A stretch of 64,000 bases of DNA, from NCBI RefSeq assembly GCF_009827655.1, contig NZ_WTYV01000006.1, positions 62,001 to 126,000 on the forward strand, given 5' to 3'. Of the stretch, positions 27,357-33,620 are shown one piece after another. Made by a program: the position numbers and the translations under genes. The notes beneath the pieces are model-generated. The model had not been told where the DNA came from and did no database searches. It saw only the letters and a program-made list of their open reading frames with translations. The DNA comes from Alteraurantiacibacter buctensis (lineage in GTDB: Bacteria; Pseudomonadota; Alphaproteobacteria; Sphingomonadales; Sphingomonadaceae). The stretch's first letter is position 1. Every line of letters starts with the position of its first letter.

Positions 27357-29291
27357 CTAGCCCAGTCCCTGCACCATGTCCTCACCCGTCAGGATCTGCG
27401 CGGTGGACTTGGCCAGCGCCTCCCCCAGCGGTTCGGCGCGCCCGCCCAGCACGGTCGCCAGGAACCCTTCGACCACGGCGTTGAAGGCGATGTTGTTTTC
27501 CGGCCGGTGGAAGCCGTGGCCTTCGTCCGGGAACAGCACATAGGTGACCGGGATGCCGTGGCCCTGCATGGCCGCGACGATCTGGTCGCTCTCGCTCTGC
27601 TTCACGCGCGGATCGTTGGCCCCCTGGCCGATCAGCAGCGGCTTCACGATCTTGTCTGCCTTGTGGATGGGCGAGCAGTCCTTCAGCAGTTGCAGGCCCT
27701 CGGGCGTGGTCGGGTCGCCCATCCGGTCGTGGAACTGCTTGACCATCGGTGCCCAGTAGGGGGGAATGGTTTCCAGCAGCGTTTCGAGGTTTGACGGCCC
27801 GACGATGTCGATGCCGCAAGCGAACACGTCGGGCGTGTAGGTGAGGCCAACCAGCGTGGCATAGCCGCCATAGCTGCCGCCCATGATCGCCACCTTGTCG
27901 AGGTCCGCGTGGCCCTGCGCCACGGCCCAGTCGACCGCGTCCAGCAGGTCATCGTGCATCGCTTTCGACCATTGCCGATTGCCGGCATTGGTGAAGTGCT
28001 TGCCGAAGCCGGTGGAGCCGCGAAAGTTGACCGACAGCACGCCATAGCCGCGGTTGGCCAGCCACTGGTGGGCGCGGTTGAAGCCGTATCCATCGCGCGC
28101 CCAGGGGCCGCCGTGAACCAGCAGCACCAGTGGCACCGGATCTTTCGCGTCGGCGGGCAGGGTGAGATAGCCGGGCAGGGTCAGCCCGTCGCGCGCCGGG
28201 ATTTCCACGCAGGCCATCGGTTGCAGCGGGGCATCTTCCAGCGCCGGCTTGGTGACGTAGAACAGGCTGAGCGAATCCAGCTCGCGGTCGTAGATGAAGC
28301 AGCGGATCGGCGCGGTGAGGGGATCGTTCCACACCAGCCACTTGCGGTCGTCATCGGTGCGGCTCATCACCCCGAAATCGCCATCGAGCTGGTCGCGCAG
28401 CCAGTCGAGCGAGGCCTTGATGCCGTGGTCGATGCAGTGCCATTCGGTGCGCAGGTAGGTGACGCTCCAGGCCTGCACCTCGCCGGTTTTCGTATGCCGC
28501 ATGGTGCCCCCGATATCGGCGCGCGGGTCTTCGGCGATCAGGGTGCGGGTGCCGGTGGCCACGTCCTCGGCATAGAGCGCGGCGGTATCGCGGCCCCGGC
28601 TGTCCAGCCAGTAGAGCGTGCTGCCATCGGTGGTATAGCCATCGGTGCCGGTGGTCAGGGCATCGTCCATGTCCACCACTTCGCACGGGGTCGGGGCGAT
28701 CACGCCGTCGGTGATCTGGTGCATGTCGGTGCCGCCGGCCTCGTTCTGGCGGATAGCCCAGCGCAGGGTCAGGCTGTCATCCGCCTCGAACCCGGCCCAT
28801 TCGTTGTTTTCCAGCACGATGGTGAGGTCGCCGGTCGTCAGGTCCAGCAGCCACACATCGTGCCACATGGGGTCGCGGTTGTTGAGGCCCACCAGCAGCT
28901 TGTCGCGGATCGTCTCGGAACTGCCGACCACGCGCACGCGGGTGTTCTCGAACGGGGTCAGGCAGCTTTCCTCCCCGCTCGCCAGGTCCACCTTGTAGAG
29001 CAGGTAGTTCTCGTCCCCCGCCTTGTCCTGGATGTAGAGCAGGGCCGAGGAGTCCGGGGCCCAGAAATACTGCGGGATCGGCCGGTCCGTGGCGCGGGTC
29101 ATGGCGCGGGCCTGGTCCGGCTCGGCATAGGGGGCCAGGAAGACGTTCATCACCCCGTCCAGCGGGGCCATCCAGCTCAGCCACTGCCCATCGGGGCTCA
29201 GCTTGCCGCCGCTCTTCTCCGGGTTGCCATACAGCACCTCGCGCGGGATCAGGGGCACGTGGCTTACGAGGTTGGCGGCGGTCCTGGTCAT
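27357..29291 (-). CDS. S9 family (prolyl-oligopeptidase-like) peptidase
   Basis: Serine peptidase with an N-terminal beta-propeller (about 1-340) and a C-terminal alpha/beta-hydrolase domain. The catalytic triad is visible: Ser473 in GGSYGGYA, Asp560 in GANDPRV and His592 in DEGHGFH. The oxyanion region is LLVHGGPWARDGYGF. The protein has 644 aa and no signal peptide, so it is probably cytoplasmic and acts on short peptides (acylaminoacyl or dipeptidyl peptidase type). Its promoter lies in 29292-29363, next to the islet boundary. Confidence 0.93.
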   Translation of the reverse strand: MTRTAANLVSHVPLIPREVLYGNPEKSGGKLSPDGQWLSWMAPLDGVMNVFLAPYAEPDQARAMTRATDRPIPQYFWAPDSSALLYIQDKAGDENYLLYKVDLASGEESCLTPFENTRVRVVGSSETIRDKLLVGLNNRDPMWHDVWLLDLTTGDLTIVLENNEWAGFEADDSLTLRWAIRQNEAGGTDMHQITDGVIAPTPCEVVDMDDALTTGTDGYTTDGSTLYWLDSRGRDTAALYAEDVATGTRTLIAEDPRADIGGTMRHTKTGEVQAWSVTYLRTEWHCIDHGIKASLDWLRDQLDGDFGVMSRTDDDRKWLVWNDPLTAPIRCFIYDRELDSLSLFYVTKPALEDAPLQPMACVEIPARDGLTLPGYLTLPADAKDPVPLVLLVHGGPWARDGYGFNRAHQWLANRGYGVLSVNFRGSTGFGKHFTNAGNRQWSKAMHDDLLDAVDWAVAQGHADLDKVAIMGGSYGGYATLVGLTYTPDVFACGIDIVGPSNLETLLETIPPYWAPMVKQFHDRMGDPTTPEGLQLLKDCSPIHKADKIVKPLLIGQGANDPRVKQSESDQIVAAMQGHGIPVTYVLFPDEGHGFHRPENNIAFNAVVEGFLATVLGGRAEPLGEALAKSTAQILTGEDMVQGLG

Positions 29292-29363: not shown

Positions 29364-29390
29364 CTACAGCGCCGGATTGTCGTAACAATG
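29364..29390 (-). repeat. stranded duplicate of the AlkA-like gene 3' end (candidate attachment site, far copy)
   Basis: Read on the minus strand in the AlkA frame this 27-bp segment encodes HCYDNPAL and a TAG stop. The living AlkA-like gene ends, 3.55 kb away, with HCYDSTAI and TAG in a segment of the same length. The first four residues and the Ala are identical, and the central TGTTACGACA is identical in DNA. No open gene continues into this copy (a TAG codon precedes it), so it is a remnant. It is best explained as the original gene end, displaced by insertion of the islet. Confidence 0.75.
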
Positions 29391-29500
29391 CTACCGCTCA
29401 GGAGGTTGTGTAGAGGCAGACCGATTGATCTGATTGGAAGAAAGATTCGTGCCAGACTTCCCCAAACTGCGCAAAGCTTTCGCTGTCAGCGGTCGGGTCC

Positions 29501-29567
29501 AATGTCTGCTTTCGGGCCAACACCGCCAGCTTTCGAATGGCGGAAATGGGGGTGGGAAGCGGACATT
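29501..29567. repeat. 67-bp inverted-repeat element
   Basis: Ends are AATGTCTGCTT and AAGCGGACATT (10 of 11 bp inverted match), with a nested CCGCCA/TGGCGG stem inside. It lies in the gene-free stretch 29391-29700, which otherwise shows nothing I can name. It resembles the small dispersed palindromic elements of sphingomonad genomes, but copy number cannot be seen here. Confidence 0.5.
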
Positions 29568-29700
29568 GCGGAAAACTTGCCCTGCGGCATATTATGCGTG
29601 ACAACCAGTCATCACTTTGACGCGCTAGCCAAGGAGTCGCCAAGACCGTCCGGTCCAATTGCGTGATTGGCTCGTACACCGCTGGCAGGGATAGTGCTGC

Positions 29701-30210
29701 ATGCAACTAATCGACGCGGATCGGATTCAGCGCATCTGGAGGGAATTGAAAGCCCGATGCTCCGATAACGAAGAAGATCGTGGTATGACCGGACGGCCGC
29801 CGGCCTTTCTCTACCCTGCCTGGGAAGAGTACCAGAACTTTGCAGGTTGGGCGCTTGTGTCAGGATACCGCGACGATCTGGTCCTTGGACGGATTGATGA
29901 AGAGCGGATTTACGGACCGGACAATTGCCACTGGATTGCGCCCGGAAGGACGAGCGGGACAGGAACGCCATCAAACTTGACGGGCCGCCTTACAGCCGAT
30001 TCAGTAGAACTTGCGATGCAATGCTCGGTCCCCGAAAAATGGTGGGACGATGATCGCCTGTTCCTGCAGGTCACCAATCGAGGAAAGGGCTATTGGTATG
30101 TGCTCATCGAAGTTGGCCGCCGGAAGACAAGGCGCAAAATCGGCGAGTACCCATCGGTTTCCCTGAATGATGCCCGTAAGATCGCTCGGACTCAAACTGT
30201 AGACAGGTAG
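29701..30210 (+). CDS. AP2/homing-endonuclease-like domain fused to an integrase Arm-type DNA-binding domain
   Basis: Protein of 169 aa; not recognised as a whole. Residues 9-83 match the pattern of phage and mobile-element proteins that pair AP2-like and HNH segments: RIWRELKARC, WEEYQNFAGWALVSGYRDDL and RIDEERIYGPDNCHWI. The His/Asn nuclease centre is not evident, so it is more likely DNA-binding than cutting. Residues 118-163 (DRLFLQVTNRGKGYWYVLIE, then RRKTRRKIGEYPSVSLNDARK) match the Arm-DNA-binding domain (DUF4102 type) at the N-terminus of tyrosine integrases. The stop follows immediately, where an integrase would continue to its core and catalytic domains. No strong ribosome site before the ATG. 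Confidence 0.7.
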   Translation: MQLIDADRIQRIWRELKARCSDNEEDRGMTGRPPAFLYPAWEEYQNFAGWALVSGYRDDLVLGRIDEERIYGPDNCHWIAPGRTSGTGTPSNLTGRLTADSVELAMQCSVPEKWWDDDRLFLQVTNRGKGYWYVLIEVGRRKTRRKIGEYPSVSLNDARKIARTQTVDR

Positions 30211-30217
30211 CTAACCC

Positions 30218-30427
30218 ATGTCTCTGCCAAATCCCGCCGCCGCCGATGCAGTTTTGGCACTCGAATTGTTGTGCGAGATGCTCGCTTCTCGAATTGCGGC
30301 GGGCAATGCCACGAGGGAGGAAGTGACGCAGATTGTGAGAAGCGCAGCGGCAAAAGTCAGCGCTCATCAGCCGAGCCTCTCGGCATATGTGGAGGTGAGC
30401 GCCGAGAAACTGCTCCTCCGCCTTTGA
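30218..30427 (+). CDS. small hypothetical protein in the islet
   Basis: Sixty-nine residues, starting 7 bp after the stop of the AP2/Arm gene, so probably co-transcribed. The protein looks all-helical, with an Ala/Leu-rich N-terminal half (ALELLCEMLASRIAAGNATR) and EEVTQIVRSAAAKV. No family recognised. Ribosome site weak. Could be a partner of the upstream protein or a chance frame; the position and reasonable composition favour a gene. Confidence 0.5.
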   Translation: MSLPNPAAADAVLALELLCEMLASRIAAGNATREEVTQIVRSAAAKVSAHQPSLSAYVEVSAEKLLLRL

Positions 30428-30641
30428 CGGAAGTTCAGGCGGTCTACAGATGCCCGCTAACTTGGCTTGGTCACGCACCCATGCGTCCGGTTCGAATGTC
30501 CATATTGGGGTCGTTCGCTGACCGTCCGCTTCCAGGCTGACGCTCACCCTGGTACTAGATCGCATATGGGGTGGAAGGTTGAAGGCGCACAAATCGACGA
30601 TCTCGGTCGGGGCCAAGCATCTTCTTCTCGGGCAAAATCGA

Positions 30642-32540
30642 TCAGCGAGTGATCCGCAAAGCTGCCATCCGACGGCCTATTTCGGCAAACGTATTTTGCA
30701 GTTCCGAAGCATTGGCAGCTACGAAGTAATGTCCTGCGCCAGCGCAACTTTCCATCAGCGTGTTGGAACCAGTGCCGAAACTGATGACCCAGACCTGGAT
30801 GTTGCGACGCTTGACTTCCTCGCAAGCAAAACTGAACCGAGCTTCTACGGTCTGGGTTAGCGATAGCGAAGACGTGGGTCTCCAGCGGCGACGATCAAGC
30901 GGTTCAATGCCATATGCTCCGTAAGAGATGTCGAGAGGTGCGGTTTCGCCATCGGTCAGGAAGATCATGTGGCGCGAGGTTGGTATGCCACCAACGTCGG
31001 CATTATCGCTCGCAAAAAGACCAGTGGGAGAAAGTAGGCGACCGCCCCAGATCATGCCGATATCGTGGTAAGTATTGCCCTGGGGTACCAAGCTGTCGAC
31101 ATAAGCTGCCACGCGGGCAGCCGTCATGACTTGGAGCCGCTGTGCTGGGGCAGGGCAAGCACTGTATCCCCAAAACCAGGCGTTGATGAACTCTTCAGAG
31201 CTGTCCACCTTTCCTGGGTTAAGGCCCCCGCGCCCATTGGTCCTGATTTCTCTCGTATAGCTGAGTTCATGCAGCATCGGTCGCCACTGGGTGTCTGGAT
31301 TTCTGCGGTCAGGGATGCGGTCGATGTCGAGGTCCAGCGCTCGGCGAAGGTCTACGTTGTTGTAGTTGGTGATCTCGTAGGTGCTGCGCTCCTCGATGCA
31401 GCCACGATAAGTTGCAACGACCGGAAGTGGGGCGATTGGTGTGCCGCCCATCAACACATCAACCGAATTTGAAGAAGGCAAGAATCCTAAGTCCATTTCG
31501 AGAGTGTCGTAGCGCCATTCCGGGACTTCTTTAATCTCCGTCCCGATTTGGCGAAACGACCAGCGGTAACGGTGGTCTGCATGATTTGTCGGGGTGACCC
31601 GAAAGCTGTTGGCTGCGATTTCTTCGCATCCGTAACTTGTCCCGGTCTCCAAAATTTGTTGGTTAGTCCAACCATCCGCCCCCGCAGTTTGGCTCTCAAC
31701 GGTCTTACGCGAGGTGGATGCAGGACAAGCAGAGGTGATATAGCTTGCGGCCGTAGAAGTATTGCCGCTCAGGTAGGTGTATTGGGTTTCATAGACCGGT
31801 TCTTCCTTAAGCTTTCCGGTCTTTTGTGGTCGACGGTAGTTATACCTCCACTCGTCCACGAGCCAGTCTTGCTGCAGTAGGCCGCCGACGTTCACATTGG
31901 TTGAGTAAGGCAGAAAGCCATAACGAATGCGTGAACCTGGCGTTCTGTTGGCCTCCATTTGGGCGTAAAAACTCTTTACCGTCTCTCGAAGAGCCTGAAT
32001 GCGGCTTTTGGTATCTCCATAATTGGTAGTTGCCATGGAACCGGTTGTGTCGAGCACCAGCATGATATCCATATTGCCGGTATTGACTTGGGCCTGGCAT
32101 GATACCGAGATCGGAATGACCTTGAATCCGAAGACGCCCATTATCGTGGTTTCAACGTCAGCGGAGGCGGAACCGCTGACCGAGTTGTCCTCGTTCAACC
32201 GCATTGAAAACTTGCGGTTTACACTGCCGTAGGATTGGTCGCGGAAATTGACGTTGAAGAACCTCTGACCGCTATCGGCGGCGGCGGAGGGAATGGTGCT
32301 GCTGATCGCCACAGCGGTGCCCAGACGCTTGCGGGCAGCAAGCACTCCGGCGTCGCAGGCCTGTTGGAGCCGTGTTTCCGCGAGGTATCCGCGCCCCATA
32401 TCAATCCCGCTACCAACGAGGGCTAGTAAGGGGAACAGCGCCGCGGCCACGATCAGGATGACGTTGCCAGCAGTTTCGATCAGCAGGAGTGAAAAAAACT
32501 CCGCCGCACGTAGTCGCAGACTTTGGACGGTCGTTGCCAT
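30642..32540 (-). CDS. TadG-like protein with von Willebrand factor A domain
   Basis: Protein of 632 aa. Residues 26-46 form one membrane helix inside the TadE/TadG-type N-terminus (ETAGNVILIVAAALFPLLAL, then DMGRGYLAETRLQQACDAG). A vWA domain follows with MIDAS residues in LVLDTTGSM (Asp164, Ser168), Thr490 in PQGNTYHDIG and FLTDGE (527-532). A long insertion (about 220-470) splits the vWA fold. TadG proteins assist Tad (Flp) pilus systems, but no other tad gene is here. A surface-adhesion role is an alternative. Base composition is lower in GC than the flanking genes. Confidence 0.82.
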   Translation of the reverse strand: MATTVQSLRLRAAEFFSLLLIETAGNVILIVAAALFPLLALVGSGIDMGRGYLAETRLQQACDAGVLAARKRLGTAVAISSTIPSAAADSGQRFFNVNFRDQSYGSVNRKFSMRLNEDNSVSGSASADVETTIMGVFGFKVIPISVSCQAQVNTGNMDIMLVLDTTGSMATTNYGDTKSRIQALRETVKSFYAQMEANRTPGSRIRYGFLPYSTNVNVGGLLQQDWLVDEWRYNYRRPQKTGKLKEEPVYETQYTYLSGNTSTAASYITSACPASTSRKTVESQTAGADGWTNQQILETGTSYGCEEIAANSFRVTPTNHADHRYRWSFRQIGTEIKEVPEWRYDTLEMDLGFLPSSNSVDVLMGGTPIAPLPVVATYRGCIEERSTYEITNYNNVDLRRALDLDIDRIPDRRNPDTQWRPMLHELSYTREIRTNGRGGLNPGKVDSSEEFINAWFWGYSACPAPAQRLQVMTAARVAAYVDSLVPQGNTYHDIGMIWGGRLLSPTGLFASDNADVGGIPTSRHMIFLTDGETAPLDISYGAYGIEPLDRRRWRPTSSLSLTQTVEARFSFACEEVKRRNIQVWVISFGTGSNTLMESCAGAGHYFVAANASELQNTFAEIGRRMAALRITR

Positions 32541-32573
32541 GGTGCCTACGGGCTTAGTCTCACTCGGTTAAGA

Positions 32574-32894
32574 TCATCCTAAACGTTTGGTTATGAAGCG
32601 ATATGCGCGGGCAATCGAAAACGACAGGCTTGGGGTAGATGCATAGCTATCTGAAAAAATGGGGGGAGCTCTGGCCAACTCTCGAATGGCTCCTATGGGG
32701 TCGTTAGCCGACAGGCAGCTTTTGATGATCAAACGCCGAGAGCAGACAACTACAATGTCAGTTTGCGCGCCGGTATGTTCCAGTCGTGCAGAGATGGCCC
32801 AACCCTTTGAAAATACGATCTTATTGAGGTCATCCCTTTCGGCAACTGACATCATGCTATGGGATTGGCATTTGCAGGACTTTAGATAAGTCAC
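32574..32894 (-). CDS. possible small protein in islet (weak)
   Basis: An open frame of 106 codons on the same strand as tadG, ending 33 bp before it. An internal ATG would give 92 aa from MSVAERDDLNKIVFSKGW. The middle alternates hydrophobic and charged residues like a real domain (AISARLEHTGAQTDIVVVCS), but no family, ribosome site or homologue pattern is recognised. It fills most of the 376-bp stretch between tadG and the AlkA-like gene; otherwise that stretch holds only the inner palindrome near 32900. Confidence 0.3.
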   Translation of the reverse strand: MTYLKSCKCQSHSMMSVAERDDLNKIVFSKGWAISARLEHTGAQTDIVVVCSRRLIIKSCLSANDPIGAIRELARAPPIFSDSYASTPSLSFSIARAYRFITKRLG

Positions 32895-32904
32895 TGTAAT
32901 ACAG
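32894..32904. repeat. palindrome CTGTAATACAG inside the right end of the islet
   Basis: An 11-bp palindrome 25 bp inside the right core palindrome (ACTGT-CGTA-ACAGT) and sharing its CTGT/ACAG arms. Candidate accessory binding site for a recombinase or directionality factor. Confidence 0.3.
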
Positions 32905-32916
32905 CAGAAAATATTT

Positions 32917-32943
32917 CTAAATGGCGGTACTGTCGTAACAGTG
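32917..32943 (-). repeat. 3' end of the AlkA-like gene forming the near copy of the candidate attachment site
   Basis: These 27 bp encode the last residues HCYDSTAI and the TAG stop of the glycosylase, and contain the 14-bp palindrome ACTGTCGTAACAGT (32929-32942, plus strand). The matching far copy is at 29364-29390. In the palindrome the two copies differ at a symmetric pair of positions (C/G here, T/A there), so symmetry is kept in both. Confidence 0.75.
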
Positions 32944-33534
32944 CCAGGTGAAGATCGCCAGAGCGCCGCGGTGCGGGCGCCAGGGTTCGGCCATGGCGCG
33001 CGTGGCCTTTTCGTCCGGGCGTTCGGGCAGGTCCAGGATCTTGCCCAGGCCGGCCATCACCGCCAGGTCACCCGCCGGCCAGATGTCCGGGCGGCCTTCG
33101 GCAAACAGCAGGTAGATTTCCGCCGACCAGCGGCCGATGCCCTTGATACGGGTGAGCTGGGCGATCGCCTCCTCGTCATCGGCAGGCAGGGAATGGAGGT
33201 CCAGCTCGCCGCTCACCACCAGTTCGCACAGGGACCGGGCATAGCCCTGCTTCTGGCGCGACAGGCCGCAGGCGCGAAGGGCATCGAAATCCCGGGCCAG
33301 CAGCTCGTGCGGGGGGATGTCCTCGCCCAGTTCCGCCTCCAGCTTGCGCCACATGGAGCTGGCCGCCGCCACGCTCACCTGCTGGCCCACGATGGTCCGC
33401 AGCAGGGTGCGATAGCCGCGCTCGCGGATGCGCGCGGCGGGATAGCCGACCTTGGCCAGCGCGGCGGCAATCGCCGGTTCGCGCGCGGCCAGCCAGTCCA
33501 CGCTGGCGTGCAGTTGATCCTCGGCAATGCCCAT
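32917..33534 (-). CDS. DNA-3-methyladenine glycosylase II family (AlkA-like)
   Basis: Base-excision repair enzyme removing alkylated bases. The start at 33534 ([15 protein letters not shown]) gives 205 aa; the longer frame upstream is unconserved. Seen: helix-hairpin-helix-GPD region [20 protein letters not shown] (128-147) and catalytic Asp156 in WPAGDLAV. It lacks the N-terminal domain of E. coli AlkA, as in many alphaproteobacteria. The C-terminal HCYDSTAI is probably supplied by the inserted islet rather than being the ancestral end. Divergent from the ferredoxin gene. Confidence 0.9.
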
Positions 33535-33620
33535 GTGTCCCGCCTTGCATATTCGGCGGCAATTGCCTAGCCAGCCGCCACCAAACGCAACGCCACCATA
33601 CGCAACAGGGACCCGCATCC

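Follow-up and report, generated by a model that had tools for sequence, protein, structure and literature searches.

The 64,000-nucleotide stretch of Alteraurantiacibacter buctensis DNA analysed here (the window; G000:C19:62001-126000, G000 being the window's genome) carries a 3539-bp islet of lower guanine–cytosine (GC) content at the 3′ end of an AlkA-like DNA glycosylase gene (alkA below). The last codons of this gene are the target: relatives have an empty site at the same point, the displaced original gene end lies on the far side of the islet, and a second genome carries an insertion whose end on the side of the neighbouring S9-family peptidase gene (S9 below) is homologous to that of the islet. 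On balance we favour an integrase-like, site-specific insertion at the alkA 3′ end, because the core is short, nearly the same boundary is found twice, the substitute gene ends have native length, the S9-side ends are homologous and the body of alkA looks ordinary. The features that carry this argument are as follows.

32917..33546, minus strand: AlkA-like HhH-GPD DNA glycosylase gene, 209 amino acids (aa) from this start, ending HCYDSTAI-stop (Pfam HhH-GPD, 1.1e-13)
32931..32944, no strand: short repeat copy on the alkA side, TGTCGTAACAGTGC
32917..32930, minus strand: substitute alkA end GTACCGCCATTTAG (last codons and stop), putatively insert-derived; differs from the ends in 36/38 relatives
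29392..32930, no strand: islet body, 3539 bp, lower GC; missing in the 13/38 relatives with a short alkA–S9 gap
29392..29541, no strand: S9-side inner islet end, homologous to the insertion in Altererythrobacter sp. KTW20L (0/1000 shuffles reach the score, over 100 bp and over 150 bp)
29378..29391, no strand: short repeat copy on the S9 side, TGTCGTAACAATGC
29364..29390, minus strand: displaced original alkA end, HCYDNPAL-stop (family-pattern match)
27357..29291, minus strand: S9-family peptidase gene, downstream neighbour of alkA at the empty site (Pfam Peptidase_S9, 4.5e-43; synteny)

The displaced alkA end and the empty site

Read along the minus strand, alkA (33546-32917) is followed by the 3539 bp of lower-GC DNA and then by S9 (29291-27357). 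The displaced HCYDNPAL-stop (29390-29364) sits 72 bp ahead of the S9 start codon on the same strand, at a distance of 3.55 kb from the substitute end. The two short repeat copies, TGTCGTAACAATGC (plus strand 29378-29391) and TGTCGTAACAGTGC (32931-32944), have 14 bp in common with one mismatch. Of the 30 positions in the family end pattern, the displaced end departs from 1, whereas 60 dinucleotide-shuffled versions of the interval came no closer than 7, 7, 8, 8 and 8 mismatches (the five best); the likeness of this end to the family alkA end is not a matter of chance. When the 28-base pattern GCAYTGYTAYRAYAAYSCNGCNYTNTRR was searched with at most one mismatch, the single match in G000 was the displaced end; 65 of 199 family genomes had a match and none had two, and the backward-pattern control gave zero throughout.

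For comparison with relatives, a genus set of 40 genomes, including that of the window, was used. The alkA-like gene was found in 39 of these (38 of the 39 others), the sole genome without a match being G015, which is 79% complete. It ends HCY(D/N/S)N(P/A)AL-stop in 36 of the 38 relatives that carry it; the two deviating ends are those of G018 (HCYDSGVI) and G033 (HIYNKAAM). An empty site, with S9 starting 55–113 bp past the alkA stop, was present in 13 of the 38, while the distance was 172–624 bp in 7 and more than 900 bp in 15. S9 was not found within the 4.8 kb of sequence covered in G017, and alkA and S9 lie on separate contigs in G018 and G038.

A reading of the window made from its letters alone (the sequence-only reading) had described the two segments, HCYDSTAI-stop at 32943-32917 and HCYDNPAL-stop at 29390-29364, with AT-richer DNA between them, and had proposed an insertion at the alkA 3′ end that displaced the old end. 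Positions and strand are as described, and GC is 0.51–0.58 in 500-base windows inside 29500-32749 and 0.64–0.75 in the flanks shown. The comparisons which that reading had suggested, for an empty site in relatives and for other elements at the same gene end, bore out the insertion: S9 follows alkA at short distance in the 13 relatives, and G018 has a new and a displaced end of its own. Its view that the differing ends point to an old insertion was not supported. Over 28 bases the displaced copy matches the native alkA end of G019 exactly; the unusual end is that which alkA now bears, and the two therefore differ because of a new end and not through decay.

The class of recombinase, the number and order of events and the loss of an integrase are what we infer in the following account. 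A small integrative element would have entered the last codons of alkA at a short core around GCAYTGTTACGACA, bringing its own substitute end (STAI-stop), so that the gene would have kept a reading frame of native length; the original end (NPAL-stop) would have been pushed to the far side, just ahead of S9. A related element would have done likewise in Altererythrobacter sp. KTW20L. The recombinase would since have been lost, or would act from elsewhere, which would probably make the islet a stranded remnant carrying a pilus-protein paralogue as its cargo. A more specific version, which we regard as improbable, would make the conserved last codons of alkA-like genes the attachment site for an undescribed family of very small elements, with specificity supplied by an HNH–Arm protein or by a recombinase in trans, and with an element-specific substitute C terminus each time.

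Altererythrobacter sp. KTW20L and the number of insertions

The second case was found in Altererythrobacter sp. KTW20L (G018), in which alkA ends DSGVI-stop, 290 bp from a contig end, and S9, on another contig, is preceded by an intact WHCYDNPAL-stop. The core shared by its two ends is 16 bp with 3 mismatches, the boundary falls nearly where it does in G000, and the substitute alkA ends of both genomes are of exactly native length. Within genome_contigs (84,980 species with one genome each, the window's genome possibly not included), KTW20L alone had a DS..I-type end. The alkA-side inner ends of the two insertions are weakly alike over 0–200 bp (45/1000 shuffles reach the score) and more so at 80–200 bp (8/1000). 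A long left-arm alignment and a likeness between left and right inside the window (0/500 shuffles each) were discounted as element homology, since they fall in repeat-like stretches. The last 306 bases of G018 contig C7 match, besides themselves, two repeat-like places in G018, and no overlap was found among the six G018 contig ends compared; contigs C9 and C1 bear Arm-type integrase-like open reading frames (ORFs), without link to the alkA site.

A third alkA-end-like piece was also seen in G018 (locus L089), as an exact 15-mer ~125 bp past the new alkA stop (0/2000 shuffles). The window has an 11/15 match to it at the matching place, a level without shuffle control. Older insertion rounds at the same alkA end are possible.

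The paired short repeats could also be taken for a 14-bp target duplication left by transposition, or the islet for the outcome of homing by the product of the ORF at 29701-30210, which combines HNH-family and Arm parts. The inner edges of the islet bear a perfect 6-bp inverted repeat (TACCGC 29392-29397, GCGGTA 32924-32929), which would suit such an origin, but by eye this repeat is not seen at the G018 junctions, and no transposase family was found in the five islet ORFs scanned. Target duplication would not yield native-length substitute ends twice, and homing usually leaves no duplication. We consider either route very improbable.

The question of one insertion or two rests on few genes, with trees built from 15 chosen genomes for S9, S9+Fdx, S9+Fdx+AlkA and AlkA alone. 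G038 paired with G018 at ultrafast bootstrap (UFBoot) values of 87 (S9), 86 (S9+Fdx) and 98 (S9+Fdx+AlkA). The alkA end of G038 is native-type (NAAL), no displaced copy was found in the 466 bp before its S9 (best 12/30 mismatches; shuffles 9 or more), and this DNA showed no significant likeness to the islet arms over 150 bp (265 and 550 of 1000 shuffles). Since G038 groups with G018 yet has a native end without a displaced copy in the DNA covered, the best fit is either two insertions or a single insertion together with a precise loss.

A single insertion in the common ancestor of G000, G018 and G038, with later turnover of the interior in G000 and G018 and loss or overwriting in G038, would account for the homologous S9-side ends, for the weak likeness of the alkA-side ends and for the third alkA-end-like piece at a matching place. 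It would, however, require precise restoration of the native end in G038, where the sequence ahead of S9 has no significant likeness to the arms. Between G000 and G018, moreover, the displaced ends differ at 5 of 27 bases, all of them third positions and all synonymous (a chance of 0.0016 if differences were evenly spread), which suggests that these ends were probably still coding until after the two lineages split. A single ancestral insertion thus appears distinctly unlikely. As the displaced copies differ at synonymous codon positions only, the displaced end is also not favoured as a conserved promoter element of S9.

Islet contents and the alkA–S9 gap of relatives

Inside the islet, the following features were annotated.

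29701..30210, plus strand: 169-aa ORF combining an HNH-family front part with an integrase-type Arm DNA-binding domain (Arm-DNA-bind_3, 5.5e-9; phrog_3377 HNH, 2.1e-11)
30218..30427, plus strand: 69-aa ORF, no family match above cut-off
30642..32540, minus strand: 632-aa TadE/G-like protein with a von Willebrand A-like region (Pfam Tad, 7.8e-11)
32695..32719, plus strand: dispersed repeat copy ATGGGGTCGTTAGCCGACAGGCAGC (5 places in G000 at <=3 mismatches; backward control 0)

The Arm domain of the 169-aa ORF is PF13356 (5.5e-9, residues 112-164), and no catalytic Phage_integrase domain was detected by a Pfam scan of the ORF and a six-frame PF00589 search. Matches to this HNH–Arm ORF (E <= 1e-3) were obtained in 74 of 298 family genomes, its own included. 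Besides its own, the matches listed are of two sorts, four that lie in the front part and end no later than residue 94 and others that begin at residue 57 or beyond; among them, no other family match spans the combination of HNH and Arm in one ORF of 169 aa.

The von Willebrand A-like region of the 632-aa protein is below cut-off. The protein is 73% identical in amino acids to a paralogue at G000:C17:184469-186364; other relatives were found in G018 and G038 (partial, 66–70%, two pieces each) and in G025, G002 and G024 (60–62%). The islet genes had earlier been called foreign to their surroundings, which is correct only in part, as the nearest relatives of the largest gene lie in its own genome and genus. 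With such relatives and no integrase in the islet, the islet is neither obviously foreign to the genus nor by itself a complete mobile element. The dispersed repeat around GGGGTCGTTAGCCGACAGGCAGC has window copies at 32695-32719, 30492-30531 and 29525-29551, and none was found in G018, G019 or G030 at <=3 mismatches.

Searches for intact elements gave no relative in viral_contigs; in phages, 150 records matched, 0 of them over 80% of the query, and no plasmid match to the islet was found at the search sensitivity used. The native-end pattern was present in 0 viral contigs, and AlkA in phages amounted to 4 distant records. The DS..I pattern in 4 viral contigs was rejected as a phage-borne alkA end and taken as one chance match, because its 28 bases do not vary among the four, three of these share one stop-laden upstream frame, and one contig that was inspected closely (L142) looks like AT-rich phage coding DNA.

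In many relatives the two core genes are separated by unrelated DNA, which makes the alkA–S9 gap a hotspot: counting G017, which lacks S9 in the 4.8 kb covered, 16 of the 38 relatives have more than 900 bp there. Gap ORFs were read in 23 relatives, with Pfam run on two G8 proteins and one TIR-TPR protein only; by reading they look like ordinary cargo, and an undetected integrase may be present among the others. Two relatives, G019 and G030, share a gene at this place.

L101 1192-3798 (G019) and L102 1171-3726 (G030), minus strand: gene for a secreted-looking G8/CEMIP beta-helix protein, right after alkA

Beyond this gene, both genomes have a decayed displaced alkA end (4/30 mismatches; lowest of 20 shuffles 7 and 8), about 50 and 70 bp long by eye. 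In G030, a TIR-TPR protein gene (L102 3953-5761) lies between the decayed end and S9. Candidates in G014 (best 10 mismatches; lowest of 20 shuffles 11) and G020 (9 against 10) were not counted as displaced ends. G019 and G030 are 82.8% identical in alkA and 83.7% in the G8 gene, compared with 77.3% in S9 and 79.0% in Fdx, and the alkA tree places G030 with G019 and G029 (88), at odds with the S9 tree. By analogy with the proposal for Vibrio effector modules (PMC5361080), G019 and G030 would be better explained by alkA-anchored recombination leaving a scar. Since G029 is as near to G030 in alkA (82.9%) and no G8-like ORF is listed in its gap, a joint transfer of alkA and G8 is unproven.

The islet of the window could have been acquired in a similar manner, by homology-anchored uptake that needs no integrase: incoming linear DNA would pair with the resident alkA at one end, be joined illegitimately at the other within the last codons of that gene and leave the old end as a scar, the gap being a general hotspot filled by recombination at the flanking core genes. 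The 16 long gaps, the decayed ends beyond the G8/CEMIP-like gene, and the closer likeness of alkA and G8 than of S9 and Fdx, with its tree conflict, speak for this route; hotspots and scars of such a kind are described in the available text of PMC5635113 and PMC5361080. In the window, however, no donor-like alkA segment is evident upstream of the core, where sliding identity along G000 alkA is noisy, without a clear breakpoint. Over the 100 bp before its last 27, the G000 gene is 88% identical to G002, G019 and G029 and 76% to G018, and its body thus appears ordinary for the genus up to the core. The insertions in G000 and G018 also agree in their short core, in substitute ends of native length and, nearly, in their boundary, and even in the G019/G030 pair the linked transfer is unproven, G029 being as near. 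We regard uptake of this type as a rather unlikely origin of the islet.

Weight of the evidence and relation to known islands

Several observations weigh against the integrase-like insertion that we favour. The locus gains genes by other means too, and in 14 of the 16 relatives with a gap of more than 900 bp no displaced end was found (best 9/30 mismatches or worse). No further intact displaced alkA end was present among the 199 family genomes, so the site would be rarely used. Phage_integrase (PF00589) has 14 matches in G000 and none in the islet, the nearest on the window's contig lying ~107 kb off, and the alkA site yielded no intact integrase-bearing element, the HNH–Arm family matches not being checked for alkA adjacency. 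Within 100 bp, the alkA-side inner ends show no likeness between G000 and G018 (366/1000 shuffles reach the score), and their likeness over 300 bp (0/500) arises via a repeat-like stretch; the G018 insertion is itself split across two contigs, with its interior unassembled. In the AlkA-alone tree, G018 and G038 are joined at 66 and G000 does not stand beside that pair, and the G038 assembly is a draft, 87% complete, in which alkA lies at the edge of a contig. Of the earlier proposal that an integrase used the alkA end as attB, the insertion stands and the integrase remains conjectural, with an Arm domain only, no PF00589 match and no intact element.

Islands at gene 3′ ends, of the Islander/TIGER type, are known (PMC4383910). 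As in the islands described in the accessible part of that source, the target gene end is regenerated, the displaced original fragment lies opposite and relatives have an empty site; here, the empty site falls at the same point, and both the window and G018 have a regenerated and a displaced end. Unlike those islands, the target is the alkA-like protein gene and not a tRNA or tmRNA gene, and the 3.5-kb islet is without an integrase catalytic domain. As the PF00589 search of G000 located no integrase gene on the element, the islet works like a gene-3′-end island and is not filed as a proven one.

Protein genes are also known as targets, among them dusA (PMC4482086) and, in general, others (PMC12884075). 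In the text available for the dusA islands, the site is again a protein gene of nucleic-acid metabolism and the cargo is varied, but the 5′ end is entered and the integrase is shared by all of these islands, whereas here it is the 3′ end and no integrase was found. A recombination hotspot at flanking core genes would likewise show unrelated DNA in the alkA–S9 gap of many relatives with no integrase noticed; the window and G018 are set apart from it by their short core, together with a displaced and a substitute gene end. The scars of Vibrio effector loci, attributed in the part of PMC5361080 available to homology-facilitated illegitimate recombination, have the old end downstream of the new module, as fits G019 and G030, but a long homologous anchor is involved there, and the window has no sign of a donor alkA body. 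In the open-licence literature, as far as its text was available, no report of alkA or another glycosylase gene as an attachment site was found, which is compatible with the suggestion of the sequence-only reading that such use may be undescribed.

An alkylation-repair-type glycosylase gene can thus be described as a place of entry for extra DNA without shortening of the gene, with an empty site, a displaced end and a second case. One locus holds both the junctions of G000 and G018, which are short (14–16 bp), and the scars of G019 and G030, which are decayed (about 50–70 bp), and this contrast makes the alkA–S9 gap a compact natural setting in which to test whether DNA enters by site-specific insertion or by homology-anchored gene uptake.

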